Assembly (NCBI RefSeq): GCF_008831285.2
Contig: NC_045145.1
Span: 13,886,802-13,950,801 of the forward strand
From: Nymphaea colorata
Taxonomy: Eukaryota; Streptophyta; Magnoliopsida; Nymphaeales; Nymphaeaceae
DNA: 64,000 nucleotides
Reading direction: 5' to 3'
Shown piece by piece: positions 4,145 through 33,459 of the stretch (position 1 is its first letter; each line of letters starts with the position of its first letter). Made by a program: the position numbers and the translations under genes. Below the pieces are notes generated by a model. It was not told the origin of the DNA and searched no databases. It was given only the letters and a program-made list of their open reading frames with translations.

Positions 4145-6424
4145 TTCACGGCGAAGCATTGTCCTCGATCTTCACATGGAGGGACCGCATCCACCCAACT
4201 GCCATGGCATGCATGCTACCATGTGTGGCTGATAATAAAGACTGATACTGGGACAATGGCCTTTCCAAGGTTGTCGGCCCACTGCCCATCACATGTTTGT
4301 TATAGTATATGGTAGTGCTGACAATATTCGGAGAGGTCAGTTGAGGACATGTTGTTTTCTTTGAATATGCGCTGAATGATCAGCTTAGGCTTGTATTCTT
4401 AAAGTTGGGCTTCAATTAGATGAGTAAGAGTTGCATCGGAAATTAAACATCGGCGGTATGGGTTTTGTTCACATGAGGAGCTCATTGAACCAGTGGAAGG
4501 TGAGAATTTTATGGGGATTCTTATGAATTGGTATTTTGGTGATAGCGCTCTAGGGATGCATATAGCTATTTTGTCATTTTTAGCTGTACAGAATGGATTT
4601 TTTAGCGAATTCGAATGTATTTTAGTTTGTCGTGGCTCGAGACATTTGCATCTGTTGCTGCTCTATGAAAACTGATCAAACTAATTTAGTAAAGAAGCTG
4701 GGGCATGAAATCTCTGTTATATTTCGGGCCAGGCCAATCCAAGGCCGGCGGGCTCTTATTGGCGTGAACAAAGTCTGGCCACCATCCCGATGGCAAACGG
4801 CCGGCTTGGCAGACCTGAGTTTGTGCAGAGCACGTGTCCAAAATTCTGCCTAGTACAGGTGATTCAAGTCAAATGGATCGGATTAAAATCCAATTCATAA
4901 AGAACAACTATCGTTTTATTCGTTTTAAAGAAAAAAGTCCCTTCGACTGCTATTTAATTTTTAATTGTTCAATGTTCACATTTCAATCTAACAATTGTTG
5001 GATCTTACAATCTTAAATAAATACATGAGATCTTACAATCTAACATTTCAAGTGTGTGTTCAATGAATCGTTCTCGAATTGGTTTTTCCATTTTTCAAGT
5101 GTGTGTTATTTTACATATTTTTTAATATTAAGTCATCTGCCATGAGATGTAACATAACTCGGCAACAAAGAAGAAGCGGTTCCAGGTTAAAATCTTACGA
5201 GTGTTGTTATACTTTCAAGTGTTACAAAACCGCTAACAGTGGTAATCACGACATTCGGGTTCCGAGTTCAATGATGTAAAAGAAACTTAAGGCAAAACTT
5301 AAGGGTCTGTTCAAGGTTTATGTTTGACAAGGCTTCCTCTAAATAAACGTTAAAAAAAACTAATCATCAACATGAATAATTTGGCAAATTATTGTTGATG
5401 AGCATCTAGATATATGTTACTGGCCTTTAGACAGCCCACAATTTTATTGATTAAAAACCTTTGAACATTATTTTTTATTTTTAAAAGAAAGAATTGTCGA
5501 GCGAGGCGGTGGTGCCCGCCGATGGCCACCACACCCCTTCCTGTTGCTGGTGATGCCGCCACCCTGCTTGGGCCATCCGAGGCTACTGCTGGTGGGTGCC
5601 ACCCCCTCCATCTGACAGAGGATCTCTTGGGGGAGCCGCCTCCCCGACCCCCTCCTCTTGCCGGCAAGGTGGTGGGATTTCACTGCCGGCCGACGAAAGG
5701 AGGTGCCCAAGGCACTGGGTTGCTCCACCTCCTTCTATGATGGGATGTCGGGCGGACATGACCAACACTTTTTTTTTTTCTTTTTCTCCGTCTCTAATGC
5801 TATGAGTCTGGCCGTCCATACAGACGGCCCAAGCTTGCACGCATGAAATTTACTTACATGTATATGTATATAGATATGATTACTTAATTCCTTCAATCGG
5901 TTTGGCGTACACCCTGATGCGCGGGGTGAAAACTGAAAATAAGCCGACCGATGCTTTCTCTTTGGCCGGACCTCACCCCAGTTGAAAAAAAAAAACAAGT
6001 GCCGTTGACTTGAGAAAAAGTTGAACTTACACTAAAAAATAAGACCGATCTAATAAACAAATAAAAAATCATCTAAATTGTTAAATTGAAATTTTGAAAA
6101 ATACCAAATTAGACATTTTTCTTGTTCATGTCGGTCCGTTTGAGAAAGATTTGAACTTACGTTAAAAAATTAGAATGATATAATAAACAAAAAAATCATA
6201 TAAATGGTTAAATTGATATTTTGAAAAATACCAAGTTCCACTTTTTTCTTCTTCATGCCATAGCTCATGAAAATTTTCATAACAAACACCTAATCTTTTA
6301 ATAGCTCAAACAATCTCGATTGGTGCACTCAACTGTTTGAGCTTAAGCATGTTCAAACAAATAAAAGACATGATCGAAAGAAAATAATTATACTTTAAAA
6401 TTAATAATAGACTGAAAAATTTCT
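4145..6424. other. PRP16 far-upstream DNA (repeated at 13323-15602)
   Basis: No gene is supported. An AATAAA lies at 4234. A GC-rich island at about 5500-5750 opens several overlapping frames on both strands, none with family resemblance and all composition-driven. The 6008-6260 stretch holds an imperfect tandem duplication described separately. The same content occurs in copy 2. Confidence 0.5.
6011..6260. repeat. Imperfect ~130 bp tandem repeat (also at 15189-15438)
   Basis: Two diverged AT-rich units lie side by side. Each starts with GAGAAA followed by TTGAACTTAC and ends with TTGAAAAATACCAA before a T-rich stretch ending in TTCATG. Units begin near 6011 and 6142. Because both 9.2 kb copies contain it, it predates the large duplication. 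It lies about 160 bp upstream of the GC-rich PRP16 leader region. Confidence 0.75.
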
Positions 6425-8403
6425 CTTGCCGCCGTTGGTCGGGCAATCTAACGGTTTAAGCTTTGTGGGGCGTCTCTGTGGCGGCGCTGGAAACGAAAGA
6501 ATAGTGTTCCGTTGTGCCGAAACCGACCCAAACGGTAAAACAGGTGAGCCCGTCGGACCACAGAGAACCCACGGAACAGCGCGCCGTGTTACTCGAGGGA
6601 CATCGAAGCCGGGTGAAACCCTCCTGCTGTTAAGCCCTTTGCTGGAAGCGGCTTTCCCTCTTCCTCTTCCTCCTTATCCACCGACCCACCGTCGTCCGTT
6701 CGCGGCCAACCGTCGCCTCCCCGGTTGAAGCAAGGTAAGCCATCTCTTTCTCTCTCTCTAACTCTCCAACCCACGGCGGAACGAGGATTCTGGCCGGCAC
6801 CTTTCTCTCTCTTGCTCTCTCTCTTCTTCCCATTCTTATCCTCCCGCGGAGGTCTCCTCTCGCTCTCTCTCTTCTTCCCATTCTTATCCTCCCGCGGAGG
6901 TCTCCTCTCGCTCTGTCTCTGTCTCGGTGTCTCCCTCTTCCACCTATTCTTATCCTCCCGCGTAGCCCTCTCTCTCTCTCCCTCTCTCTCTCTCTCAGTC
7001 ATTGCTAGGTGCACATAAGATGTTTGATGAAATGCCTCAGGTATAAACTTGTAGCAGTGCACAAAATCAACTGATGTTTCTCACCACCATGTTGGACCCA
7101 TTTTTTTTCCTTCCTCCTCTCTTTGCGTCTATCTTCCTCATTCACGCAGCCGACCATCAAATTCGACATATGCGAAATCATACAAATAATACTCCCATTG
7201 ATGAGATTCCGCCTTCTTTATTTGGCTCATTTTTTATTTTATTTTTCTCTTAATCGGTTATTTTTGTCATTTTCTGCTCTATTAAGATTGTGCACGTGTT
7301 ACTAGAAAAAGAGGCCCTGCTGCACAGATCAACTAGTGGAATGGATGCTTTTTTCTTTGTGTCAGAGGCTCTGATCTCACGCATAAGTTAACGAGTTCGT
7401 GAACCTTGAGACTGTTTTTTCAAATACTAACTGATAAGCATGTGTTGTATCCAATGTTTGTTTACTTTAGCTGTAAGCAACACGACTGACCTTTTCCTAC
7501 ATCTCTTTACCCTTGTCTGGCTTAATTTTTTTCACTGTGCTCAGCAGTGGAATTTCCCTTTGCTGTTCCTTCAGATTTTGAGATGTCTGCATCGATAATG
7601 TTGCCTATGAATAGCTGAAACTGTTTCTTCTTAAATGCATCTGAGTCATATCTTTTGAATCTAGACGAATATGATGTGTTTGCTTCTATCGCCTCATAAT
7701 GCTACACTTGTTGCTTCTGCTTTCGCAGTTTTGTTCAAATTTTCATTTCCAAAGCATTGTGTCCGTAAAGCTGCTGTAAACATATCTTATATGAAATCAG
7801 ATGTATAAAATTTGAATGTTCAAACACTTTCAAATATCAGTCTTTTTTGAGTGGTTGGTCTTGCATTTCTTTTCTTTACAATCACTTTATATATAATCCA
7901 AACAATTGAAATTTCAGCCATCGGACAATGAACATTATGATTCTCTGATTGTGTCTTCGTCTTTTATTTTATTACACCTTCAATTTCATTGTTGCATTCT
8001 CTTGCAGATTATCAAACACCGAACAGATCAGACACCTTTTCCATTCCCAATTTCATAAAACTATGGAGTGGTCACTGTTTTGTCCACTGGGATAAAGACT
8101 CTTGTATGGAGAACCGGACTTCCCCGTTCTTCCTGTCCCAGGAACTCTTATCAAATGCCCTCTAAAAGCCAAAACCTGACTGCATTCCCTCTCTCTCTCT
8201 CTCTCTCTTTTTCTCTCATATATTTGGGATAGGAACAGGCTGAAAATGGAATCTGCCAGCTTAGAGATTGGCAAAGCCAGAAAATAAACTGATAGGTGTA
8301 TTGATTTGGGGCATTGTCTTAGGTGGATTTTCTAATCCATGTATGATACAAACAGTGCACAGGAAACTTCTGTTGTTTGAAGAGGGCGTTCTGCTTGAAC
8401 AGC
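6425..8403 (+). promoter_or_regulatory. PRP16 core promoter and 5' leader, copy 1 (copy 2: 15603-17592)
   Basis: Base composition changes abruptly at about 6425 from AT-rich to a CG-rich stretch, then to polypyrimidine CT tracts (6741-6995), typical of plant housekeeping promoters and leaders. A good donor, GCAAG followed by GTAAGC, lies at 6734/6735. A good acceptor, CTCTTGCAG, ends at 8007, so a leader intron of about 1.3 kb is plausible. The rest of the leader, 8008-8403, contains upstream ATGs (for example 8250) in other frames. The transcription start cannot be fixed from sequence alone. The same elements exist in copy 2 and there drive the complete gene. Confidence 0.5.
6814..6963. repeat. 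48 bp pyrimidine-rich minisatellite in PRP16 leader (also 15992-16141)
   Basis: A 48 bp unit starting GCTCTCTCTCTTCTTCCCAT and containing TCCTCCCGCGGAGGTCTCC is present in two near-perfect tandem copies (6814-6861, 6862-6909), followed by a degenerate third copy. It sits just after the putative leader donor, so it would be intronic if that donor is used. Confidence 0.85.
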
Positions 8404-11400
8404 ATGGCGGTGAGTGCATGACTGCATTCCAGAATCAAAATGTTTCAAGTTCATCTTTTCTATTTGCTGCTTCTCATTTTTCTACAGCACTCATGTTAGT
8501 TGTTATTCTTGTAAATAGGAAGGAAAAGGAGACTTTATTGATGTTAATGCCACAAAAGCTGTCTTGGAGCCTGAGAAGCTCATTAAGGGTGGACTATATG
8601 TTCCTGGGAAGGAAAGGGTGATGTTCAGACCTCCTCCTGAAAGGAAATCCATTTTGGGTGTGTTCTTGTTGAATTTCTTGGATTAGTTTTTGAATTTTTT
8701 ATTATTCAAGTTGCTTTCTTTCAACACGTAGTTTCTATAATTATTACATAGTATATTACAATGTGTCAAGTCAAGTGATCTTTGAACAATGTAGGACTTG
8801 ATTTGAGGGCTCGTGAACAAAGGGAATCAAAGACTGGCGATGGATTTAAGATTCCTAAACCAAAGAATGTTACTGCCATGTCACTGGCAGATGATGAAGA
8901 GAAAGTTGGTCCTGCAAGTGCAGAGGAGGGCTCACTCCATCATCCTCAAGCAAAGCGTAATCACATTCACAGAAGTTATAGGGGTTCACATGCTGAAAGG
9001 TCATCACATCCAGGTGCATATTTTTCTAATGACTAATGAGTAATGACTTCGTTACCAACAATTTACTAATTTTGTGTTTCTATTTTTTTGCATAAATAAT
9101 CTGTTAATTACATGTCACTTTATTTATCAAGTTGTTTGGGTACTTTTTTCCTACACCATTATTCTTTTCTTCCACCGTTGGTTATACATTTGTAATGATG
9201 CATTTATTTTTCATAAATTCTTATTTTTAACTCAATACTGTTTCAGAAAGTTATGAAGCAGAGGATGGTGATGGGGATTCATCTGAGAAGGGTGGTGCAG
9301 AAGAACATCAGCATCCAAGAGTAATTCATACACATTCATGATTATAAATTATTTGCTTCATGCGTTTCTTGCCAACACTATCGTTTCCATCTTATGTTAG
9401 ATACAAGCTATCAGCCTATCACTACCTTAGTGTCATTATCTCGTCATTTTATGATTTGATTGGCATCTATAGTAAGCATGATAAGTTGTTATACCATATA
9501 ACTATATGAGCATTATTCCTTGAAAACTTTGATGATGTTTTCTCTCATTCACGAAAGGTTAGGCAGGTGTTCCACGAACCGGCAGACTTCCAGGGTGTGC
9601 AAATTGGGTGGTGTACATACCTAAGTCCATCCTGGATCTGGCCCATTTGTTGGTTCTGGACGGTATGTGTGAATCTTGAGTTCATTATAAGATACTTATT
9701 TTGGCCTAGCTGGATCCTGGGTGGGATCAAGTGAATGAAAGGGTCCACTAACTAGTTTTCCATCTCTCAGATTCGTACCTAGGTCCCGGTTGACCCTGCA
9801 CATATCCAGCTGGTTTGCTTCCTATTTTCTAGCAAACTGGCCAACTGCTTCTCTGGTGCATATCAGTGTCAGTGCATATAAGTCTTGTAGTTATACATGT
9901 CTGAGGATCTGCTTTATTAATCTTTTATTCATTCTATTTCTAGAGAAGCCTTAAGATCGTTAAATCATCGCATCCTAATTTGCATATACACAGAACTGGT
10001 CCATGACCAAATACAAATACTCTCTTTAAGGAGATTTGCACGCAGTTGTAGTTGGTTCATCTAATCCATATATGCATAAATGATATTGATGGATGTTTCT
10101 GATTTTTGCCTTGTTTGAAGCTTGCAACTTCTTCCAGCATGCGGTCTTCAATCGACTCATTGAGGAGTACAAAAAATTACAGGATGGATGACTCTCCTAG
10201 CAACAAAGGATTCACCCCAAGAAAAGGTGATTATGAAGGAGAACAAACAGGTAAAAGAGAATTACATAGAAGATATAGCCATGAAGATAAATATTCCAGA
10301 AGACATGGGGGGAAAAGAAGTAGAGATGGACGTTCCTCAAGCAAGACATCTGGTATCAGCTTCATCTTAAGCTATTCAAGTCTCTAGTTATAAAACATAA
10401 CAATATATAGATTTTCCCTCTGGTATATTTTGCTGCTCGGTTTGTGAAAGTAAGAGGTTTTGATTAGTGGATATTTTCCAGCCAAGTCTGATTGGGATGA
10501 TGGGAGATGGGAATGGGCGGATACTCCTCGTAGGGACAAGTCTGTCACGCCTAGGCATCATCTTCATTCACCTTCTCCAATGTTTGCTGGAGCTTCTCCT
10601 GATGCAAGGCTGGTCTCACCTTGGGTTGGAAGTAATACACCTTATGCATCAAGTAGGTGAATACTTGGTTTGCTTTGGATAAACTTTCTTGGTGTGTTGG
10701 TTTAAATGTGATGACATAATATCATAGAAATTTTACTTTTTTATTTAATAGAATCTGTCTTAGTTCTTTCCTATGTCATGGTAGTTAAATGTTTAAATTT
10801 CCTTAAATATATGATTGTATTTGGTAAAAAATTTCAGGACCATCTGCTTCGCCTTGGGATCATGTAGCTCCTTCTCCAGTTCCTGTACGTGCATCTGGAT
10901 CCTCCATGAGAGTCACCAGCTCTCGTAATGGTGGAAGGTCACATAAAACTATGTTAACTTCAGAAAATTTGGATTTTGGACACAGGGTAATTTTGCTGTA
11001 GCCCTTTATCACTTTATGTATTGGTTTTCTTTTCAGAAGATATTTTCAACTTGTACTGTATTGTTTGTTGTATATTGGGAATTGAACTGACTTTTGGCAT
11101 CGTCATCCTTTCTCTCTGTCTCTCTCTCAGGAAGCTGATCAAAGTTCACTTGATGGAGAACAAAGTGTTGAGGCTGTTGAAAGAATGCGCGTAGAGATGG
11201 AATATGCTGAGCGAGATGCTGATCGTGCATGGTATTGTTTTCTATGTGCTGATGTATTTGATTTTGGTTATGAACAAAAACTTGTTCACTAGCTACTAGT
11301 CATGTGGCCATAATCTGTTTCTTTTGCTTCAGTGGAAAGACTACGGTTTCAATCCTTTCTAGTTGTTTTTGCTTCTAATGGAGCATGGTAGACACAGTTT

Positions 11401-13423
11401 ATCGGTCTATTGACTTCACCTTACATGCATATATCCAGTCACTTGGATGTTGGATCTACACTATGAAAATAAATTTCTCTGTTCTTCCTGATTTCTTGGA
11501 CCTTTGAAGCCCAAGCTAAACTTTGGGAAGTTTCTTAAAATTCTAAGTTCTAACTAGAAAAAAGTTATAAGTTTATAGGAGAACATGGTCCTTTCTTAAT
11601 GTCATAACAGATTGTGTAAGAATGCAAGGATAGTGTTGTTCTCTGATCAATCCTTATGTTTATGTGATGGTCTTAGAATATGCTAGTTCTCATTCTTCAA
11701 CATGGAGATGCTCTTGAATTGCATGGTGCCCTTTTTTTCCTCTTCAAAGAACTTTTAATGGAAAATACAAATGCCTGCACTGCAGCAGCTATCCTGCCCA
11801 GAATTAGTCAAGTTGAAAATCTTGCTTGTATATTACATACAATGGGGCAGGCAAACAAAGAAAAATTTTCTTTCCTTTGTCAAATTAATCAGTAAAAATA
11901 TGTAGCAACATAGGTTAATCACCTGGTATAGTTACAGCATAAAGCCATAAACAAGTGCCATTTCATGAAATTGTACTGGAATCTTAATGTAGTTTCTCTC
12001 CATCCCATGATCCCAACTGTTTAAGAAAAGAAAGCTAGTTGGGTTGGTTCAATGACATGTGAGGGGAAGGAAGGAGAAAAGCAATTCTTAAATGGAATTA
12101 AGGAGTCAACTTCCTTTACTCACAATCAAATTGGATTCTAGTTTGTGTTTTGCCTTGATTAAAAGGGCTTATGCACCATCCGTGCTTTGGAGCTTGTGTT
12201 CTATACTTCTATCTCCCTCTGCACTGAGGACAATATAGCCAATACTTGTCTTAAATGGTGGAAACAATGGTAAAGCCTAGGAAACTAAAGTGCCTTGGCC
12301 TTTTATAGCTTTAAAGTTTAAGCAACCTACAGATGGGATAAATTGTGTGATTGATACTTGGGCCTTCTAAAGTCACTAGTATAGGTCGTATATATAATGT
12401 CTGAATTGTCATAAGCAAGTTTCTGATTGGTAAGTCCCTTGAGGTCTTGGCTGCATATTCTGCAGTACTTGTAACTTCAACTTTGTGGCACACCAGGTAT
12501 CTTATTGTGAATATGAACTTGATACCCTGTCAGCTTCGTGACTCATCATTTCTCCTTGCAGAATGAGGGTATCCTTCTGAGCTCCTAATTGCAACTAATA
12601 CATGTGAAATGGAACTTTTTAACTACATCTAACACTGTAAAGCTAAATTTATAAAATCCTGTGTTACTTTGTGATCTTGTGGTTGAGGGGCATCTTGCAC
12701 TTCCAAAACTGACACTCAGACATACACAGCAGATGAGCACTTGTAGGTACTCATTTATGTGGTCATAAGTTTATATTTAGTATGTTTTAGTAAGTTTTTT
12801 AATATTTTAATGCTTGACTAGTGATAACTTACAATTTAATTTTTTTTCTTAAATTTTTGGTGCTTATTTATGTCTCAGGTATGATAGGGAAGAAAGTGGA
12901 GCAATGTTTGATGCTGAAAGTTCTGCATTCATTCTTGATGATGAGACATCATTTAGAAAGGAGCGGGAGATGCCCAAGAAATTGGTAGGGTATTGGAATT
13001 CTTGGTTCTTCTCAGTTTTGTCTTTCCATAATTCTCTACTCACTGGGCTTCTAGATTTATCATATCTTAATATTTGGGGACATTTGGATCTCCTATTCTG
13101 TTGAATCATTGAATATCATGGTTTAATTGGTAAAAATTACCGACTTGCAGATAAGAAAAGATGGAACAAAAATGACACTTGCACAAAGCAAAAAATTGTC
13201 CCAGCTCACTGCAGATAATGCACAGTGGGAGGATCGACAACTTTTAAGGTCTGGTGCTGTTAGAGGAACAGAGGTACAAACTGAATTTGAAGATGAAGAT
13301 GAACGGAAAGTTATACTTCTTGTTCACGGCGAAGCATTGTCCTCGATCTTCACATGGAGGGACCGCATCCACCCAACTGCCATGGCATGCATGCTACCAT
13401 GTGTGGCTGATAATAAAGACTGA
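8404..13423 (+). pseudogene. 5'-partial PRP16 copy, truncated in exon 10 and fused to upstream DNA
   Basis: This copy repeats coding exons 1-9 of the intact gene at 8404-8409, 8519-8657, 8795-9013, 9247-9320, 10121-10352, 10482-10652, 10838-10986, 11131-11231 and 12879-12984. A broken exon 10 follows from 13151. No coding disruption was seen before the breakpoint; the noticed differences from copy 2 are intronic or upstream. At 13323 exon 10 runs into duplicated upstream DNA and loses its donor. The frame stays open for 31 foreign codons (GEALSSIFTW... to ...ADNKD) and ends at TGA 13421-13423, with AATAAA at 13412-13417. The predicted product is 489 residues: the charged, RS/WD-rich N-terminal domain of PRP16 without Walker A, DEAH or any other helicase motif. 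It has its own complete promoter copy, so it may be transcribed. Whether a stable protein is made is unknown. Confidence 0.9.
9745..9875. repeat. Dispersed ~130 bp repeat in PRP16 intron 4 (copy 1)
   Basis: The segment containing CACTAACTAGTTTTCCAT, CCCGGT, CACATATCCAGCTGGTTTGC and CTGGTGCATATCAGTGT is recognisably related to a stretch of PRP16 intron 12 at about 24117-24247. It also occurs at 18934-19064 because of the 9.2 kb duplication. It is likely an old short transposable element, family not recognised. Confidence 0.6.
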
Positions 13424-16400
13424 TACTGGGACAATGGCCTTTCCAAGGTTGTCGGCCCACTGCCCATCACATGTTTGTTATAGTATATGGTAGTGCTGAC
13501 AATATTCGGAGAGGTCAGTTGAGGACATGTTGTTTTCTTTGAATATGCGCTGAATGATCAGCTTAGGCTTGTATTCTTAAAGTTGGGCTTCAATTAGATG
13601 AGTAAGAGTTGCATCGGAAATTAAACATCGGCGGTATGGGTTTTGTTCACATGAGGAGCTCATTGAACCAGTGGAAGGTGAGAATTTTATGGGGATTCTT
13701 ATGAATTGGTATTTTGGTGATAGCGCTCTAGGGATGCATATAGCTATTTTGTCATTTTTAGCTGTACAGAATGGATTTTTTAGCGAATTCGAATGTATTT
13801 TAGTTTGTCGTGGCTCGAGACATTTGCATCTGTTGCTGCTCTTTGAAAACTGATCAAACTAATTTAGTAAAGAAGCTGGGGCATGAAATCTCTGTTATAT
13901 TTCGGGCCAGGCCAATCCAAGGCCGGCGGGCTCTTATTGGCGTGAACAAAGTCTGGCCACCATCCCGATGGCAAACGGCCGGCTTGGCAGACCTGAGTTT
14001 GTGCAGAGCACGTGTCCAAAATTCTGCCTAGTACAGGTGATTCAAGTCAAATGGATCGGATTAAAATCCAATTCATAAAGAACAACTATCGTTTTATTCG
14101 TTTTAAAGAAAAAAGTCCCTTCGACTGCTATTTAATTTTTAATTGTTCAATGTTCACATTTCAATCTAACAATTGTTGGATCTTACAATCTTAAATAAAT
14201 ACATGAGATCTTACAATCTAACATTTCAAGTGTGTGTTCAATGAATCGTTCTCGAATTGGTTTTTCCATTTTTCAAGTGTGTGTTATTTTACATATTTTT
14301 TAATATTAAGTCATCTGCCATGAGATGTAACATAACTCGGCAACAAAGAAGAAGCGGTTCCAGGTTAAAATCCTACGAGTGTTGTTATACTTTCAAGTGT
14401 TACAAAACCGCTAACAGTGGTAATCACGACATTCGGGTTCCGAGTTCAATGATGTAAAAGAAACTTAAGGCAAAACTTAAGGGTCTGTTCAAGGTTTATG
14501 TTTGACAAGGCTTCCTCTAAATAAACGTTAAAAAAAACTAATCATCAACATGAATAATTTGGCAAATTATTGTTGATGAGCATCTAGATATATGTTACTG
14601 GCCTTTAGACAGCCCACAATTTTATTGATTAAAAACCTTTGAACATTATTTTTTATTTTTAAAAGAAAGAATTGTCGAGCGAGGCGGTGGTGCCCGCCGA
14701 TGGCCACCACACCCCTTCCTGTTGCTGGTGATGCCGCCACCCTGCTTGGGCCATCCGAGGCTACTGCTGGTGGGTGCCACCCCCTCCATCTGACAGAGGA
14801 TCTCTTGGGGGAGCCGCCTCCCCGACCCCCTCCTCTTGCCGGCAAGGTGGTGGGATTTCACTGCCGGCCGACGAAAGGAGGTGCCCAAGGCACTGGGTTG
14901 CTCCACCTCCTTCTATGATGGGATGTCGGGCGGACATGACCAACACTTTTTTTTTTTCTTTTTCTCCGTCTCTAATGCTATGAGTCTGGCCGTCCATACA
15001 GACGGCCCAAGCTTGCACGCATGAAATTTACTTACATGTATATGTATATAGATATGATTACTTAATTCCTTCAATCGGTTTGGCGTACACCCTGATGCGC
15101 GGGGTGAAAACTGAAAATAAGCCGACCGATGCTTTCTCTTTGGCCGGACCTCACCCCAGTTGAAAAAAAAAAACAAGTGCCGTTGACTTGAGAAAAAGTT
15201 GAACTTACACTAAAAAATAAGACCGATCTAATAAACAAATAAAAAATCATCTAAATTGTTAAATTGAAATTTTGAAAAATACCAAATTAGACATTTTTCT
15301 TGTTCATGTCGGTCCGTTTGAGAAAGATTTGAACTTACGTTAAAAAATTAGAATGATATAATAAACAAAAAAATCATATAAATGGTTAAATTGATATTTT
15401 GAAAAATACCAAGTTCCACTTTTTTCTTCTTCATGCCATAGCTCATGAAAATTTTCATAACAAACACCTAATCTTTTAATAGCTCAAACAATCTCGATTG
15501 GTGCACTCAACTGTTTGAGCTTAAGCATGTTCAAACAAATAAAAGACATGATCGAAAGAAAATAATTATACTTTAAAATTAATAATAGACTGAAAAATTT
15601 CTCTTGCCGCCGTTGGTCGGGCAATCTAACGGTTTAAGCTTTGTGGGGCGTCTCTGTGGCGGCGCTGGAAACGAAAGAATAGTGTTCCGTTGTGCCGAAA
15701 CCGACCCAAACGGTAAAACAGGTGAGCCCGTCGGACCACAGAGAACCCACGGAACAGCGCGCCGTGTTACTCGAGGGACATCGAAGCCGGGTGAAACCCT
15801 CCTGCTGTTAAGCCCTTTGCTGGAAGCGGCTTTCCCTCTTCCTCTTCCTCCTTATCCACCGACCCACCGTCGTCCGTTCGCGGCCAACCGTCGCCTCCCC
15901 GGTTGAAGCAAGGTAAGCCATCTCTTTCTCTCTCTCTAACTCTCCAACCCACGGCGGAACGAGGATTCTGGCCGGCACCTTTCTCTCTCTTGCTCTCTCT
16001 CTTCTTCCCATTCTTATCCTCCCGCGGAGGTCTCCTCTCGCTCTCTCTCTTCTTCCCATTCTTATCCTCCCGCGGAGGTCTCCTCTCGCTCTGTCTCTGT
16101 CTCGGTGTCTCCCTCTTCCACCTATTCTTATCCTCCCGCGTAGCCCTCTCTCTCTCTCCCTCTCTCTCTCTCTCAGTCATTGCTAGGTGCACATAAGATG
16201 TTTGATGAAATGCCTCAGGTATAAACTTGTAATAAACTTGTAGCAGTGCACAAAATCAACTGATGTTTCTCACCACCATGTTGGACCCATTTTTTTTCCT
16301 TCCTCCTCTCTTTGCGTCTATCTTCCTCATTCACGCAGCCGACCATCAAATTCGACATATGCGAAATCATACAAATAATACTCCCATTGATGAGATTCCG

Positions 16401-19400
16401 CCTTCTTTATTTGGCTCATTTTTTATTTTATTTTTCTCTTAATCGGTTATTTTTGTCATTTTCTGCTCTATTAAGATTGTGCACGTGTTACTAGAAAAAG
16501 AGGCCCTGCTGCACAGATCAACTAGTGGAATGGATGCTTTTTTCTTTGTGTCAGAGGCTCTGATCTCACGCATAAGTTAACGAGTTCGTGAACCTTGAGA
16601 CTGTTTTTTCAAATACTAACTGATAAGCATGTGTTGTATCCAATGTTTGTTTACTTTAGCTGTAAGCAACACGACTGACCTTTTCCTACATCTCTTTACC
16701 CTTGTCTGGCTTAATTTTTTTCACTGTGCTCAGCAGTGGAATTTCCCTTTGCTGTTCCTTCAGATTTTGAGATGTCTGCATCGATAATGTTGCCTATGAA
16801 TAGCTGAAACTGTTTCTTCTTAAATGCATCTGAGTCATATCTTTTGAATCTAGACGAATATGATGTGTTTGCTTCTATCGCCTCATAATGCTACACTTGT
16901 TGCTTCTGCTTTCGCAGTTTTGTTCAAATTTTCATTTCCAAAGCATTGTGTCCGTAAAGCTGCTGTAAACATATCTTATATGAAATCAGATGTATAAAAT
17001 TTGAATGTTCAAACACTTTCAAATATCAGTCTTTTTTGAGTGGTTGGTCTTGCATTTCTTTTCTTTACAATCACTTTATATATAATCCAAACAATTGAAA
17101 TTTCAGCCATCGGACAATGAACATTATGATTCTCTGATTGTGTCTTCGTCTTTTATTTTATTACACCTTCAATTTCATTGTTGCATTCTCTTGCAGATTA
17201 TCAAACACCGAACAGATCAGACACCTTTTCCATTCCCAATTTCATAAAACTATGGAGTGGTCACTGTTTTGTCCACTGGGATAAAGACTCTTGTATGGAG
17301 AACCGGACTTCCCCGTTCTTCCTGTCCCAGGAACTCTTATCAAATGCCCTCTAAAAGCCAAAACCTGACTGCATTCCCTCTCTCTCTCTCTCTCTCTTTT
17401 TCTCTCATATATTTGGGATAGGAACAGGCTGAAAATGGAATCTGCCAGCTTAGAGATTGGCAAAGCCAGAAAATAAACTGATAGGTGTATTGATTTGGGG
17501 CATTGTCTTAGGTGGATTTTCTAATCCATGTATGATACAAACAGTGCACAGGAAACTTCTGTTGTTTGAAGAGGGCGTTCTGCTTGAACAGCATGGCGGT
17601 GAGTGCATGACTGCATTCCAGAATCAAAATGTTTCAAGTTCATCTTTTCTATTTGCTGCTTCTCATTTTTCTACAGCACTCATGTTAGTTGTTATTCTTG
17701 TAAATAGGAAGGAAAAGGAGACTTTATTGATGTTAATGCCACAAAAGCTGTCTTGGAGCCTGAGAAGCTCATTAAGGGTGGACTATATGTTCCTGGGAAG
17801 GAAAGGGTGATGTTCAGACCTCCTCCTGAAAGGAAATCCATTTTGGGTGTGTTCTTGTTGAATTTCTTGGATTAGTTTTTGAATTTTTTATTATTCAAGT
17901 TGCTTTCTTTCAACACGTAGTTTCTATAATTATTACATAGTATATTACAATGTGTCAAGTCAAGTGATCTTTGAACAATGTAGGACTTGATTTGAGGGCT
18001 CGTGAACAAAGGGAATCAAAGACTGGCGATGGATTTAAGATTCCTAAACCAAAGAATGTTACTGCCATGTCACTGGCAGATGATGAAGAGAAAGTTGGTC
18101 CTGCAAGTGCAGAGGAGGGCTCACTCCATCATCCTCAAGCAAAGCGTAATCACATTCACAGAAGTTATAGGGGTTCACATGCTGAAAGGTCATCACATCC
18201 AGGTGCATATTTTTCTAATGACTAATGAGTAATGACTTCGTTACCAACAATTTACTAATTTTGTGTTTCTATTTTTTTGCATAAATAATCTGTTAATTAC
18301 ATGTCACTTTATTTATCAAGTTGTTTGGGTACTTTTTTCCTACACCATTATTCTTTTCTTCCACCGTTGGTTATACATTTGTAATGATGCATTTATTTTT
18401 CATAAATTCTTATTTTTAACTCAATACTGTTTCAGAAAGTTATGAAGCAGAGGATGGTGATGGGGATTCATCTGAGAAGGGTGGTGCAGAAGAACATCAG
18501 CATCCAAGAGTAATTCATACACATTCATGATTATAAATTATTTGCTTCATGCGTTTCTTGCCAACACTATCGTTTCCATCTTATGTTAGATACAAGCTAT
18601 CAGCCTATCACTACCTTAGTGTCATTATCTCGTCATTTTATGATTTGATTGGCATCTATAGTAAGCATGATAAGTTGTTATACCATATAACTATATGAGC
18701 ATTATTCCTTGAAAACTTTGATGATGTTTTCTCTCATTCACGAAAGGTTAGGCAGGTGTTCCACGAACCGGCAGACTTCCAGGGTGTGCAAATTGGGTGG
18801 TGTACATACCTAAGTCCATCCTGGATCTGGCCCATTTGTTGGTTCTGGACGGTATGTGTGAATCTTGAGTTCATTATAAGATACTTATTTTGGCCTAGCT
18901 GGATCCTGGGTGGGATCAAGTGAATGAAAGGGTCCACTAACTAGTTTTCCATCTCTCAGATTCGTACCTAGGTCCCGGTTGACCCTGCACATATCCAGCT
19001 GGTTTGCTTCCTATTTTCTAGCAAACTGGCCAACTGCTTCTCTGGTGCATATCAGTGTCAGTGCATATAAGTCTTGTAGTTATACATGTCTGAGGATCTG
19101 CTTTATTAATCTTTTATTCATTCTATTTCTAGAGAAGCCTTAAGATCGTTAAATCATCGCATCCTAATTTGCATATACACAGAACTGGTCCATGACCAAA
19201 TACAAATACTCTCTTTAAGGAGATTTGCACGCAGTTGTAGTTGGTTCATCTAATCCATATATGCATAAATGATATTGATGGATGTTTCTGATTTTTGCCT
19301 TGTTTGAAGCTTGCAACTTCTTCCAGCATGCGGTCTTCAATCGACTCATTGAGGAGTACAAAAAATTACAGGATGGATGACTCTCCTAGCAACAAAGGAT

Positions 19401-22400
19401 TCACCCCAAGAAAAGGTGATTATGAAGGAGAACAAACAGGTAAAAGAGAATTACATAGAAGATATAGCCATGAAGATAAATATTCCAGAAGACATGGGGG
19501 GAAAAGAAGTAGAGATGGACGTTCCTCAAGCAAGACATCTGGTATCAGCTTCATCTTAAGCTATTCAAGTCTCTAGTTATAAAACATAACAATATATAGA
19601 TTTTCCCTCTGGTATATTTTGCTGCTCGGTTTGTGAAAGTAAGAGGTTTTGATTAGTGGATATTTTCCAGCCAAGTCTGATTGGGATGATGGGAGATGGG
19701 AATGGGCGGATACTCCTCGTAGGGACAAGTCTGTCACGCCTAGGCATCATCTTCATTCACCTTCTCCAATGTTTGCTGGAGCTTCTCCTGATGCAAGGCT
19801 GGTCTCACCTTGGGTTGGAAGTAATACACCTTATGCATCAAGTAGGTGAATACTTGGTTTGCTTTGGATAAACTTTCTTGGTGTGTTGGTTTAAATGTGA
19901 TGACATAATATCATAGAAATTTTACTTTTTTATTTAATAGAATCTGTCTTAGTTCTTTCCTATGTCATGGTAGTTAAATGTTTAAATTTCCTTAAATATA
20001 TGATTGTATTTGGTAAAAAATTTCAGGACCATCTGCTTCGCCTTGGGATCATGTAGCTCCTTCTCCAGTTCCTGTACGTGCATCTGGATCCTCCATGAGA
20101 GTCACCAGCTCTCGTAATGGTGGAAGGTCACATAAAACTATGTTAACTTCAGAAAATTTGGATTTTGGACACAGGGTAATTTTGCTGTAGCCCTTTATCA
20201 CTTTATGTATTGGTTTTCTTTTCAGAAGATATTTTCAACTTGTACTGTATTGTTTGTTGTATATTGGGAATTGAACTGACTTTTGGCATCGTCATCCTTT
20301 CTCTCTGTCTCTCTCTCAGGAAGCTGATCAAAGTTCACTTGATGGAGAACAAAGTGTTGAGGCTGTTGAAAGAATGCGCGTAGAGATGGAATATGCTGAG
20401 CGAGATGCTGATCGTGCATGGTATTGTTTTCTATGTGCTGATGTATTTGATTTTGGTTATGAACAAAAACTTGTTCACTAGCTACTAGTCATGTGGCCAT
20501 AATCTGTTTCTTTTGCTTCAGTGGAAAGACTACGGTTTCAATCCTTTCTAGTTGTTTTTGCTTCTAATGGAGCATGGTAGACACAGTTTATCGGTCTATT
20601 GACTTCACCTTACATGCATATATCCAGTCACTTGGATGTTGGATCTACACTATGAAAATAAATTTCTCTGTTCTTCCTGATTTCTTGGACCTTTGAAGCC
20701 CAAGCTAAACTTTGGGAAGTTTCTTAAAATTCTAAGTTCTAACTAGAAAAAAGTTATAAGTTTATAGGAGAACATGGTCCTTTCTTAATGTCATAACAGA
20801 TTGTGTAAGAATGCAAGGATAGTGTTGTTCTCTGATCAATCCTTATGTTTATGTGATGGTCTTAGAATATGCTAGTTCTCATTCTTCAACATGGAGATGC
20901 TCTTGAATTGCATGGTGCCCTTTTTTTCCTCTTCAAAGAACTTTTAATGGAAAATACAAATGCCTGCACTGCAGCAGCTATCCTGCCCAGAATTAGTCAA
21001 GTTGAAAATCTTGCTTGTATATTACATACAATGGGGCAGGCGAACAAAGAAAAATTTTCTTTCCTTTGTCAAATTAATCAGTAAAAATATGTAGCAACAT
21101 AGGTTAATCACCTGGTATAGTTACAGCATAAAGCCATAAACAAGTGCCATTTCATGAAATTGTACTGGAATCTTAATGTAGTTTCTCTCCATCCCATGAT
21201 CCCAACTGTTTAAGAAAAGAAAGCTAGTTGGGTTGGTTCAATGACATGTGAGGGGAAGGAAGGAGAAAAGCAATTCTTAAATGGAATTAAGGAGTCAACT
21301 TCCTTTACTCACAATCAAATTGGATTCTAGTTTGTGTTTTGCCTTGATTAAAAGGGCTTATGCACCATCCGTGCTTTGGAGCTTGTGTTCTATACTTCTA
21401 TCTCCCTCTGCACTGAGGACAATATAGCCAATACTTGTCTTAAATGGTGGAAACAATGGTAAAGCCTAGGAAACTAAAGTGCCTTGGCCTTTTATAGCTT
21501 TAAAGTTTAAGCAACCTACAGATGGGATAAATTGTGTGATTGATACTTGGGCCTTCTAAAGTCACTAGTATAGGTCGTATATATAATGTCTGAATTGTCA
21601 TAAGCAAGTTTCTGATTGGTAAGTCCCTTGAGGTCTTGGCTGCATATTCTGCAGTACTTGTAACTTCAACTTTGTGGCACACCAGGTATCTTATTGTGAA
21701 TATGAACTTGATACCCTGTCAGCTTCGTGACTCATCATTTCTCCTTGCAGAATGAGGGTATCCTTCTGAGCTCCTAATTGCAACTAATACATGTGAAATG
21801 GAACTTTTTAACTACATCTAACACTGTAAAGCTAAATTTATAAAATCCTGTGTTACTTTGTGATCTTGTGGTTGAGGGGCATCTTGCACTTCCAAAACTG
21901 ACACTCAGACATACACAGCAGATGAGCACTTGTAGGTACTCATTTATGTGGTCATAAGTTTATATTTAGTATGTTTTAGTAAGTTTTTTAATATTTTAAT
22001 GCTTGACTAGTGATAACTTACAATTTAATTTTTTTTCTTAAATTTTTGGTGCTTATTTATGTCTCAGGTATGATAGGGAAGAAAGTGGAGCAATGTTTGA
22101 TGCTGAAAGTTCTGCATTCATTCTTGATGATGAGACATCATTTAGAAAGGAGCGGGAGATGCCCAAGAAATTGGTAGGGTATTGGAATTCTTGGTTCTTC
22201 TCAGTTTTGTCTTTCCATAATTCTCTACTCACTGGGCTTCTAGATTTATCATATCTTAATATTTGGGGACATTTGGATCTCCTATTCTGTTGAATCATTG
22301 AATATCATGGTTTAATTGGTAAAAATTACCGACTTGCAGATAAGAAAAGATGGAACAAAAATGACACTTGCACAAAGCAAAAAATTGTCCCAGCTCACTG

Positions 22401-22511
22401 CAGATAATGCACAGTGGGAGGATCGACAACTTTTAAGGTCTGGTGCTGTTAGAGGAACAGAGGTACAAACTGAATTTGAAGATGAAGATGAACGGAAAGT
22501 TATACTTCTTG
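13323..22511 (+). repeat. Tandem duplication, copy 2 (9,189 bp)
   Basis: This is the downstream member of the direct duplication. It begins at the junction TTCACGGCG, where PRP16 exon 10 of copy 1 is fused to the DNA originally found at 4145. Its right end (TTCATGGTGAG) continues seamlessly into the native exon 10 donor and the rest of PRP16. The only indel seen is an 11 bp tandem repeat, AATAAACTTGT, near 16229-16240, absent at the matching place in copy 1 (about 7050). This copy supplies the promoter and first exons of the intact PRP16 gene. Confidence 0.97.
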
Positions 22512-25500
22512 TTCATGGTGAGTTATGCCTTAAAACTTTTAAAATGTCTTTCTAGCTGACATGTTGGAAGGAATCTTGCTTTGAAAATACTATTGTCTAA
22601 TCAAATATCATCCTGAGTGGGAATTTCTGAGTCTCTGACAGCGTGTTGGTTAGCCCATCGAAGATTGGTCTAGGATTGTCCTTCACTCAGTTTGGTTGTT
22701 TAGAATTTTTTTATTGGTTGTTAGTATTACATGGTGAATTATGTTTTCTGTTCCATCTTATGATCTGTTTATGGCTTTATGGTTTTTAAAAAAATTGACA
22801 ATGAGAATTGCAATTAATATTTTATATTAACCATCTGTAAGATGATAGAATAGCAGTGTTATGCTGTTGTGGTGATCTTCCTTTATGAAAATTTACGTAT
22901 TGGTCTCAGGTTTCTGACTCTGCATCTACTTGTATGGTGTTACGTTCCAATTTAAATTACAAAATGCAGTAAGACTCAAGTATGTTAAGTTCCAGAGATT
23001 GGTCCCTAAGATTGAGTATCAGTGTTGTTTCTGGTGGGATTGAGAAAGCTCCATTCTAAACTGTTGTCTATTTCCTCAACTAGGAAAGCCATATCGCCTT
23101 TTAGTACGGATCCCTTGTCTACAAGTCCTGTTCACTTTGTATAATTTTGTTTTCGCAGATACTAAACCTCCATTCTTGGATGGCCGGATTGTCTTCACAA
23201 AGCAAGCAGAGCCCGTTTTGCCATTGAAGGATCCCACATCCGACATGGCAATAATATCTAGGAAGGGCTCTGCTCTTGTAAGGACGGTCCATGAGAAGCA
23301 GAGTATGAATAAATCACGTCAACGGTTCTGGGAACTTGCTGGGTCCAAACTTGGTGATATTCTTGGTGTTGAGAAGACAGCAGAACAGGTTTTCCATCAC
23401 TTCATTACTGATGTCTTTTAATCTATCATGCTTAGGCATGGTTCTCGTGAATATTCAGTTGCCTGTGGATTAATTGTGTTTGTTTCCAGATTGATGCAGA
23501 TACTGCTGCAGTTGGGGAAGAAGGTGAAGTTGACTTTAAGGAAGGAGCAAAATTTGCTTCACACATCAAAGATAAAGGTGAAGCTGTAAGCGATTTTGCC
23601 AAGTCAAAATCAATAACAGAACAACGGCAGTATCTTCCAATATATTCAGTGCGTGATGAGTTGCTCCAGGTAGTAGCTTTTGTAACTGAATAAATATTGC
23701 ATCTGTTTCATTAGTCTTCATTCGTAGGTTCACTTTGTTCATTAGGAAAGACATGTGTGGATGTGTTTGACCAGAATATTATTTTGTTGCTTTAATGTGA
23801 ATGTTTCTGGTTTATAGGTGTGCAATGGATTCTTTTTTTTTTTTTGGGGGGGGCGGGGCGGGGTGGATTCGAGTTTGATGCAGTCAGTACCGTAACAGAA
23901 AGCTTCTTATCTGCTCAATGGCCAATAGTTTTCATGAAGAATGTGCTACAATAAATTTAGTTTGTCCCGTCTTTTTATGTCAATTAAGCCTTTTACTTAT
24001 CTGAAAAGTCTCGTATAGTTTTACAATATAATCAATTATTTTGTAAAAGGTGCTGGAAACGTTTACCTTTTTGTTTTGCACATGAGGTGATTAAAATTTC
24101 TTCTTTTGTTTTGGTCAAGCCACTAGTTTTTCATTTTTCAGACCCCGGATTTAGGTGAAGCTTAACCGGCACATATTCAACTGGTTTGCTTCTTTACTTC
24201 CTAGCAACTGTATAACTGCTTGTTTGGTGCATATCAAGTGTTAGTGTTGACGTCATTCCATGTCTATTCACTTATGTTGCATCTACAAACAAAACATAAT
24301 GCATTGTTAAATATATCTTATAGTTGTAGGTATATGGGGGTATTTCTTGTGACCTCTAATGACTTCTAGTCTAGGTTTGTTCAGCAGGAGGTATGGAAAA
24401 AATTATCGTATCGATCTTGACAATAGCAAAACTAGGGGAATTGCCTGGGATCTGATATTTGAGCTTTCCTCTGACCCTAAGGTCTGAAATTTTGTGCATT
24501 TCTTGTTAGGATAGTATGACAAAACTGCCAATGGCTACAGCACTCTTAGCACAATATACCAACAAAACCTTAACTAGTTTGTTTCGGGCATGCTACAGTT
24601 AATGGATGGCAGTGCTGGTTATGTTCCTAAGACACGGCCAACCTTATGAGAAGGAGCCTTTTGTTGTGTAATTGCAGATTTTTGATGTTGTGCAGATAGA
24701 TTGTTAGGTGAATTTGCTTCAATCTGTTCTATCTCATGTTAATATTTTGCAGCCATGGTGAATTATGACGCTGTGATGCTCATTGTTTTGGTAGGTGGTT
24801 CGTGAGAATCAGGTGATAGTTGTTGTTGGAGAGACTGGGTCTGGGAAAACAACTCAGCTGACACAGGTTAATATTCTTTGTTTTTGATGAATTTGTGGCT
24901 GTATTTTCGTGATTGCAACTAGCTCTGTCAATTTTAAAAACGAGGGGCTATATGCAATTGACAGCGTTAATGGTTTTCTTGTCCACAGTATCTTCATGAA
25001 GGTGGATACACAACAAATGGAGTAATTGGTTGTACCCAACCAAGGCGTGTAGCAGCAATGAGTGTTGCAAAGCGTGTTAGTGAGGAAATGGAAACTGAAT
25101 TAGGGGATAAAGTTGGTTATGCTATTCGTTTTGAAGATGTGACTGGGCCACATACTGTAATTAAGGTGATGTGATTTTTATTACATCTTATGTGTTCATA
25201 TTGATCTCCAGAATATTAATTTTGGCATTGTAGTGCATTTTAGATATTTGAGCATCGCTGACACATTTGTCTGCAGTGCAAGTGTGGTTTCATATTTCAA
25301 AAAAACTTGTGTATGTGTTTTTGAAGGTATCTATGTGCGTCAAAGAAGCTTATATGTACATGTGTAAAGAATTACATGTAACTAAGTTGACTATCTATAT
25401 AGTAAAATGCTGACTCAAATACGTTAGTCCAGTAGCCCTGCTCAGGTGACATAGTTGAGTGCGTGCATTTTATATATAGGGCATGAATGATCAAGCTGGA

Positions 25501-26761
25501 CAGTTAAAAAAGGCTTTTAATCACTGTATTCTTTTTGAGTTCTGTTAACTGATTATGTTTTATTTTGCTCATACAGTATATGACTGATGGGGTTTTACTG
25601 CGTGAGACACTAAAGGATTCAGATCTTGACAAATACCGGTAAGAATTTGGTTGAAGCATCGTGTCAACCTATTTCTGTCTTCTTTTCTTTCTTTAATTTA
25701 TTCGTCTTTTGGTTGCCTGCTAAATCCATCTTAGCGGACTTTGAAGAAATTTTGATGGCTTATTATTGTGAATCTCGAGTGGCCTTTCTAGGAAGGATGC
25801 TGATAACATCCTGCTTTATGTGTAATGATCGTGTGTGCTCTCTGCAGCTTGCTGTTTTCTTTGTTCATCCTTTGAGAAATATTACAAAGAAAGGAAAGTT
25901 TGTCATTTTTTTGTTTGTTGGTTGAATTTTTTTAGACATGTATAAATTGAAGGTTTGTTTTTTGCATCAACCATCTCATTTGCTGTGTTCCTATTAGGAC
26001 TTTCTTAACTTTTTATTTCCTCTGTGATTTTCAATCACCCATGAACACAAGTACGATTTATTTCTTTGAATAATTGTTTACTTATATACTTGTTGTATTG
26101 GTTTTTCTTAAAAAAAAAATCATTATTCTTATGGATATTATATATTTCACAATTTCGTACACTTCAACGCCTTGAAGCTTATGCCTCAGGCTCATGATAG
26201 GCTCATCCCCTCGCTTTGCCGTATCGGTCTCCAACATTGGTTACACGAAAGTAAACTAGTTGCAAGGGTCTATCATCTCTTTGTTGTTGAAAGTGCTTGG
26301 TGGGCCTAGAAAGCCTAGTGTAAGGTGCCTAGTTGTTACAGAATATGAAAGAAAAAAAAAAGAGAAGGAAGAACAGGGAAAAGAGAAGGAAAACAAGAAA
26401 AACAAGAAGAAAAGGGGAAAAATTAAATAGAAACATAATTACAAAAGGTAAAAATAGAGTGGGAAACAGGAGGAAAAAAAAAAATTTGAAAAGCATTTTT
26501 TTGTTTGACTAAGGTGCCTAGGTGGTCCAGCCTAGTTCAAAAAGCTTGTGCCTTGGTGCACTTTTGACTATGAAGTGTATTATAACACTTTGTTTTTAGT
26601 TGGGCTACGTAAGGAAACATGCTTACTATCATCACAATCCAGTTACAGAGGCGACTAGGCACAAGAAGAGAAAATACTGCTAGATATACCGTATTGGTGT
26701 TAAAGTGTTTTTTTCTCTAATATCATTCTTATTGGAAATACTCATTTTTCTTTTCATATTT

Positions 26762-26802
<41 letters not shown>

Positions 26803-29476: not shown

Positions 29477-29831
29477 GAAATTTGTCAATCACATTTGTAG
29501 TAATAGTCATTTGATTGGGTAGTTCACTGTAACAAATATATTAAGAGGTCTAAATCAAGGGAGAAGAATGTGCAGCTGACTCTTCTTGCGCATTCTTGTC
29601 GCGTTCTTTGTTTGGAAACCCTCTTGAACGCCGTATTTCGTTGTTGGAACCCCTACCTCATTCTTTAGGCGGGATGGCTTATTGAGAGAGAGGGAGAGAG
29701 AATTCCAATAGGAGGGAGAGAGAGTATAATAATGGGGTTTCTTCTCACGAGTGAGCTGAACACCAGTAACCAACTCGGAAATTATTTTAGCCAGTGTGGA
29801 AGGCCAGCAGTAGCAATTGTAAGTAGCAATT

Positions 29832-30144
29832 ATGCTATTTGCTCTGCATGTTTTCACAATGCGGCAAGACTGTTGGGAGTTGGAATGCTTGCCATTTGCA
29901 TCCAAGTAGTGCACGTTATGGACTTGGGTACACTCCGGATTGTGTGGTGCACTACGAGCTGATTCTAACAACCAAGGAGTACATGCAATGTGTTGCCGCA
30001 GTAGAGAAAGGGTCCAATACTTCCATGTTGGAGCACAAGGAGAAGGAAAAGACATCGATGGAGGAACTTAGGAGGATGCATCTAGAGAAGGAGAAGGAAG
30101 ACATGGAGAGGGAGAAAGAAAATCCTTCACCAGCCTTCCATTAG
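29832..30144 (+). pseudogene. Diverged fragment of the PRP16 3' end
   Basis: Starting at [13 protein letters not shown], the plus-strand translation follows the PRP16 C-terminal region that the intact gene encodes at about 28885-29260. Matches include [52 protein letters not shown] and [12 protein letters not shown]. Relative to the intact gene it has an early frameshift with a small deletion (the [11 protein letters not shown] stretch is mostly gone), loss of the [13 protein letters not shown] stretch, and shortened charged repeats. It ends at a stop at 30142. It lies 480 bp downstream of the PRP16 stop, in the same orientation, and is far more diverged than the 9.2 kb copies, so it records an older, independent partial duplication. 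It has no promoter or helicase motifs. Confidence 0.9.
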
Positions 30145-33055: not shown

Positions 33056-33162
33056 GATGCCTCCCAACCTCTTCCTCTTCGTCAGCTCCTTCACTCAACT
33101 GCAGCAGAGCAGTAGTGCTGCCAAGGATCAATACTACTGGTTCTCCACCCTGTTCCATTTCA

Positions 33163-33459
33163 ATGGGAAAGAATCTAATATTCCATCACTCCATGGAATT
33201 GGACAAGGGGCCGTCCAAGCACAGCAAGGCAGTCCCCAAGGGCTGCTTGGCAGTCAAGGTCGGGCTCCACGACGACGGCCAGCGCCGGTTCATAATTCCG
33301 ATCACCTACCTCTCCGATCCCCGGTTCAGGCGGCTTTTGGAGGACGCACAGGAGGTATACGGCTTCCGGACACCCGGCCCCCTTCAAATTCCCTGCTCCG
33401 TCGAGGATTTTCTCCATCTGAAGTGGCTGATGGAGCGAGAGCATACTTACGCTTGCTAG
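33163..33459 (+). CDS. SAUR (small auxin-up RNA) family protein, 98 aa
   Basis: SAURs are small, short-lived plant proteins. Many inhibit PP2C.D phosphatases at the plasma membrane and promote cell expansion in response to auxin. The single-exon frame has the family signature in order: KAVPKGCLAVKVG near residues 25-37, RRFIIPITYLSDPRFRRLL (43-61), EDAQEVYGF, then GPLQIPCSVEDFLHLKWLMER. The family is normally intronless and 90-150 residues long, so 98 is typical. I chose ATG at 33163 (MGKNLIFHHSMEL) as the first ATG in frame after the TATA-predicted start; a second in-frame ATG ten codons later is an alternative. The conserved IP-Y-S-P-F core is intact. It stands alone, without the tandem SAUR neighbours common in plants. 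Confidence 0.92.
   Translation: MGKNLIFHHSMELDKGPSKHSKAVPKGCLAVKVGLHDDGQRRFIIPITYLSDPRFRRLLEDAQEVYGFRTPGPLQIPCSVEDFLHLKWLMEREHTYAC

Follow-up and report, generated by a model that had tools for sequence, protein, structure and literature searches.

A candidate recent partial tandem duplication at the PRP16 locus of Nymphaea colorata

The PRP16 locus and its duplicated unit

The 64,000-base window analysed here (Nymphaea colorata, contig NC_045145.1, positions 13,886,802 to 13,950,801 of the forward strand) contains a complete gene for the splicing helicase PRP16, preceded by a truncated copy of the upstream region and first exons of the same gene. Self-BLAST returned one long direct repeat in the window, 4145-13332 against 13323-22521 (9199 columns, 99.83% identity), and a 9-kb repeat at such identity cannot be chance. 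A base-by-base walk along both copies was used to fix their exact limits and differences, giving the following features at the locus.

4145..13322, + strand: first copy of the unit (copy 1, 9178 bp), made up of 4259 bp of sequence preceding the PRP16 start codon, coding exons 1-9 and the part of exon 10 that lies before the junction
13323..22511, + strand: second copy of the unit (copy 2, 9189 bp), running on without a break into the intact PRP16 gene
16232..16242, + strand: 11-bp insertion in copy 2 only, the second tandem unit of ATAAACTTGTA, which is a single unit in copy 1
17593..29348, + strand: model of the intact PRP16 gene, with 17 coding exons for 1282 amino acids and with DEAD, Helicase_C, HA2 and OB domains

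The copies adjoin directly, head to tail, and in copy 2 the unit spans from 4270 bp upstream of the start codon to the final nucleotides of coding exon 10. The BLAST match overruns the strict end of the unit by 10 bp owing to similarity between the breakpoints, which have TTCA in common and agree at eight of ten bases. Apart from the insertion, copies 1 and 2 differ by three substitutions, 4665/13843 (A/T), 5195/14373 (T/C) and 11853/21042 (A/G), all outside coding exons, two being upstream of the start codon and one in intron 8. In their coding parts, exons 1-9 show no difference between the copies, nor do the first 176 bases of exon 10. The unit contains 30 homopolymers of at least six bases, each as long in copy 1 as in copy 2, and the tandem arrays within the unit (five rows in each copy) likewise match in length. 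Divergence thus amounts to 3/9178 bp, or 0.033% (95% interval 0.007-0.096%). An earlier reading of this DNA, made from the sequence only, had described a very recent duplication of about 9.18 kb with three substitutions and one 11 bp insertion; its coordinates and counts proved exact, and the low divergence bears out its "very recent".

The upstream region of the unit carries a short dispersed repeat (4858-5027, with an equivalent in copy 2) that recurs at seven other places on C1, C3, C11 and C466 with 78-81% identity, and a copia-type gag gene fragment lies on the minus strand at 1492-2055 (Pfam Retrotran_gag_3 and gag_2), 2.1 kb to the left of copy 1.

The exon model of the intact gene was built by hand from the sequence. 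All 16 introns begin with GT and end with AG, and the exons join into a single open frame of 1282 codons. The exon 5 acceptor and the exon 6 donor were chosen by frame and not by transcript; an alternative for each was dropped, as both break the frame. Pfam placed DEAD, Helicase_C, HA2_N, HA2_C and OB_NTP_bind on the model in that order, with the helicase core starting at residue 592. The best match to a solved structure was a chain named PRP16, 5yzg_Z (E=0, 1287 bits, residues 33-1281), which we take to be the human PRP16 chain, followed by DHX8 (826 bits over residues 386-1225), with the yeast PRP16 chain slightly below DHX8 at 821 bits and DHX15, PRP43 and PRP2 lower. Judged by these matches the gene is a PRP16/DHX38 DEAH helicase, nearer to PRP16 than to PRP22, PRP2 or PRP43, its N-terminal region included. 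The name PRP16 given in the sequence-only reading is therefore confirmed by domain order and best solved match, and the complete downstream gene that it proposed is confirmed by the 17-coding-exon model. A 127-column repeat of 76% identity is shared by PRP16 introns 4 and 12 (9751-9874 and 24122-24246) and is perhaps a small mobile element.

Physical duplication or artefact of assembly

We consider it probable that the repeat represents a real and recent partial tandem duplication at the level of DNA, and one that is probably near-neutral. There are no Ns across 264 kb around the duplication, the window included, and the join is therefore not a scaffold gap. The lack of homopolymer-length and of tandem-array-length differences also makes the differences between the copies unlike raw long-read error. 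Parts of the locus were searched as DNA against the 407.8-Mb assembly, using a search that scores the best candidates only and skips very common words. The junction region gave three matches, all three of them in the window, with no extra haplotype copy. The left breakpoint gave nine, comprising two in the window and seven short dispersed ones (78-81%), and the right breakpoint gave four, comprising two in the window and two that belong to a single decayed copy on C9; neither breakpoint search returned a haplotype contig. Of the 12 megablast self-matches of at least 300 bp in the 264-kb neighbourhood, only this duplication reaches 99% identity or more. The same neighbourhood has one 446-bp pair at 98.4% identity, and an older tandem array with a spacing of ~14-18 kb and 85-94% identity is found at C8:14012510-14043269, ~62 kb to the right of the window end.

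The sequence-only reading had itself raised a false duplication, made by joining two haplotypes, as the main alternative. In that case the plant would be single-copy at the locus, the assembler having placed two alleles, or two under-merged read stacks, end to end. False duplications are reported to be widespread, to occur adjacent on one scaffold and to be capable of making false gene parts (PMC9516828), and the present repeat resembles them in being adjacent, nearly identical and gene-truncating. Near-identical copies would be the expected appearance of such an error in a low-diversity plant, and ~28 Mb of the assembly lie outside contigs C1-C16, indicating that it is imperfectly resolved. 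In contrast, of the signs of false duplication named in the same source, namely gaps between copies, low depth, discordant pairs and one-copy k-mers, the gap, which is a main one, is lacking at this join (PMC9516828). There is moreover microhomology at the join, the differences form a single clean pattern free of homopolymer-length changes, and the divergence is far below the 0.22-0.95% heterozygosity of three vertebrate examples given there, a range that may not apply to a plant (PMC9516828).

Several considerations nevertheless weigh against a real duplication. The evidence is the sequence of one assembly. Short-read polishing could hide homopolymer errors, and the two alleles of a plant that is inbred or of low diversity could also differ by 0.033%. 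A join free of Ns can result from gap filling (PMC9516828), and, the genome search being non-exhaustive, its failure to return a haplotype contig is not proof. Thus, while weakened by the missing N gap, the microhomology, the very low divergence and the constant homopolymer lengths, a false duplication is unlikely in our view and yet still to be reckoned with.

The truncated copy and its possible products

Copy 1 holds coding exons 1-10, encoding 458 of the 1282 residues (36%), all of them ahead of the helicase core. The upstream region and N-terminal exons described as duplicated in the sequence-only reading are therefore borne out by the exon model, whereas "first half" of the gene is too much for 36% of the protein and ten exons of 17. 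The features of copy 1, and one hypothetical intron leading from it, are as follows.

8404..13423, + strand: truncated PRP16 frame of copy 1, 489 codons, with 458 PRP16 residues followed by 31 novel residues
8404-8409, 8519-8657, 8795-9013, 9247-9320 and 10121-10352, + strand: exons 1-5 of this frame
10482-10652, 10838-10986, 11131-11231, 12879-12984 and 13151-13420, then TGA, + strand: exons 6-10 of this frame
13326..13334, + strand: position of the exon 10 5' splice site in copy 1, where ATG/GTGAGT of the intact gene has become ACG/GCGAAG
12985..22339, + strand: hypothetical 9.35-kb intron from the copy 1 exon 9 donor to the copy 2 exon 10 acceptor, from frame arithmetic only

The junction falls on the 5' splice site of exon 10, so that TTCATG/GTGAGT in the intact gene is replaced by TTCACG/GCGAAG (the slash marks the exon border) and the donor is lost in copy 1. 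Read through, the frame ends at a stop at 13421-13423, and Pfam found no family in the truncated frame at E<=0.001. An AATAAA at 13412 lies beside this stop, and as it is one of ten AATAAA or ATTAAA hexamers in 13323-16000 it proves nothing. Without the exon 10 donor, transcripts of copy 1 may continue past the junction, terminate prematurely, be degraded or undergo skipping. Frame calculations were made for these outcomes. Joined to exons 2-17 of copy 2, copy 1 exon 9 would reach the normal stop in frame in 8 of 16 cases, the join to exon 10 giving exactly the normal 1282 amino acids and that to exon 2 a 1679-amino-acid protein with a doubled N-terminus. The truncated exon 10 would be in frame with downstream exons in only 3 of 16 joins, and both of the pyrimidine-rich leader acceptors of copy 2 that were tried with copy 1 exon 9 led to early stops. 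As the exon 9-exon 10 join would restore the normal mRNA, the duplication may be silent.

The effect of the duplication is most likely small. The intact copy has lost none of its 17 coding exons and still has 4270 bp of DNA upstream, so that no loss of function need follow, and the weight that the sequence-only reading implied for an essential gene was overstated. It could instead be envisaged that copy 1 has a selected function, either as a helicase-less N-terminal PRP16 protein or as a second promoter acting via a spliced-around message. The 489-codon frame is open, with a coding part identical to that of the intact gene through the first 176 bases of exon 10, half of the exon 9 joins, that to exon 10 included, stay in frame to the normal stop, and functional partial duplicates exist in plants, as reported for HvARM1 (PMC6092874). 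However, youth alone explains the coding identity, the argument draws on frame calculations, and both the few in-frame joins of the truncated exon 10 and the early stops at the leader acceptors speak against it; we regard a selected function as improbable. It is just as doubtful that the species carries the duplication commonly or in all plants and uses both starts, whereby copy 1 would either give an ordinary PRP16 message from a second promoter, with exon 9 spliced across 9.35 kb to exon 10 of copy 2, or end at the junction and give a 489-amino-acid helicase-less PRP16 that competes for the spliceosome and tunes PRP16 dose.

Origin, related copies and significance

The near-neutral duplication that we favour has the following junction.

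13319..13332, + strand: duplication junction, with the microhomology TTCA within the 8/10 similar bases TTCAYGGYGA

The four bases TTCA at 13323-13326 recur at 4145-4148 and at 22512-22515. When 200,000 breakpoint pairs were drawn at random from this neighbourhood, at least four shared bases occurred in 1.98% and eight of ten bases alike in register in 0.07%, the latter measure having been picked post hoc. No longer repeat is common to the two 1-kb breakpoint regions, in which the longest exact match is 11 bp and all rows have an E of 0.43 or worse. A 4-bp match without long homology is what template switching or microhomology-mediated joining would be expected to leave. In rice, 27 genes with non-collinear copy-number variants (CNVs) are reported, 14 of them put to non-homologous end joining (NHEJ), 12 to transposons and one to non-allelic homologous recombination (NAHR) (PMC4812662); the NHEJ or microhomology variants described there likewise have few shared bases at the join and no long homology, but they were inferred across accessions (PMC4812662), whereas a single assembly and no population is considered here. 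A transposon- or NAHR-mediated origin, which the copia gag fragment 2.1 kb to the left of copy 1, the dispersed repeat within the unit and the 12 of 27 rice genes put to transposons (PMC4812662) might have suggested, was set aside as highly improbable, since the 1-kb breakpoint regions have no common repeat beyond chance-level matches and one breakpoint is an exon/intron border.

We envisage that an error of replication or break repair linked the very end of exon 10 back to a position ~4.26 kb ahead of the start codon, with the 4-bp TTCA match and no longer homology, through microhomology-mediated end joining or template switching. The upstream copy would thereby have become a helicase-less 5' fragment, consisting of upstream DNA and ten exons with the last donor site destroyed, while the downstream copy would have retained the complete gene along with the DNA upstream of it, and PRP16 function would be expected to be intact. 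Transcripts of copy 1 would be expected to end near the junction, to be degraded or to be spliced around into the ordinary message, and the copy itself to be near-neutral. At a substitution rate of 7e-9 per site per generation the divergence would correspond to an age of ~23,000 generations (4,800-68,000), and at an alternative rate of 1.5e-9 to a point value of ~109,000; had the copies undergone gene conversion, they would be older than these figures.

Two further and older pieces of PRP16 were found in the assembly, one of them in the window.

29834..30122, + strand: older, decayed duplicate of the 3'-terminal part of PRP16 exon 17, 0.5 kb downstream of PRP16, from a source at 28884-29260, with 266 of 289 ungapped columns identical and with deletions

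The second, at C9:16620229-16623439, is a decayed fragment with exons 11-14 free of introns, a short piece of exon 17 and stops, and is presumably an old retrocopy. As these fragments show, PRP16 has been partly copied more than once in this genome. That there is one intact PRP16 comes from DNA searches of the assembly with parts of the gene, which were not exhaustive, as the known pair 28884-29260 and 29834-30122 was not listed as a separate match. Between the end of PRP16 and the old 3' piece, 29749-29807 has a 58-bp match (86%) to C10:22187888-22187945. The intact gene has the full-length PRP16 architecture of Arabidopsis CLUMSY VEIN (At5g13010). Arabidopsis is listed with one PRP16 gene (PMC545797), and its cuv mutants are reported to have auxin-related defects and arrested embryos (PMC12114641). 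In contrast to that single gene, the present genome yielded one intact gene accompanied by three partial copies, of which the 5' one is young, the 3' one is old and the intronless one has decayed.

Elsewhere in the window lie a gene for the COG4 Golgi tether subunit on the minus strand (43843-51045; Pfam COG4_C, COG4_N and COG4_m) and a SAUR-type auxin-responsive gene (33058-33459; Pfam Auxin_inducible). Four of the seven window reading frames submitted to Pfam matched no family, and the search of the window for RNA genes gave no Rfam match at gathering score and none with ARAGORN.

With adjacent head-to-tail copies, one of which has part of the gene only, the structure is that of a partial tandem gene duplicate, and it looks like an ordinary duplication of a known kind. 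As in the partial duplicates, with or without recruitment, described by Katju 2012 (PMC3449122), one breakpoint lies upstream of the gene and the other inside it, and the truncated copy has the 5' flank and first exons, possibly with new tail codons from neighbouring DNA. We see no structural difference from the class as outlined in that source (PMC3449122), although a core splicing helicase is, in our judgement, a less usual target. HvARM1, a partial duplicate of HvPUB15 in Triticeae, is likewise a partial plant gene copy whose full-length source survives, but it dates from a Triticeae ancestor and has a reported function (PMC6092874), whereas copy 1 is young. Among the papers listed on PRP16 duplication or paralogues and on PRP16 in plants, none mentioned such a duplication in its title or abstract opening, which is not a claim of absence.

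If the duplication were false, annotation could wrongly include a short PRP16-like gene next to the true PRP16. If it is real, as we consider probable, it offers a clean, base-resolved young partial duplication, in which the gene would survive thanks to the order of the copies, with the truncated one placed upstream and the complete one still having its own upstream DNA.

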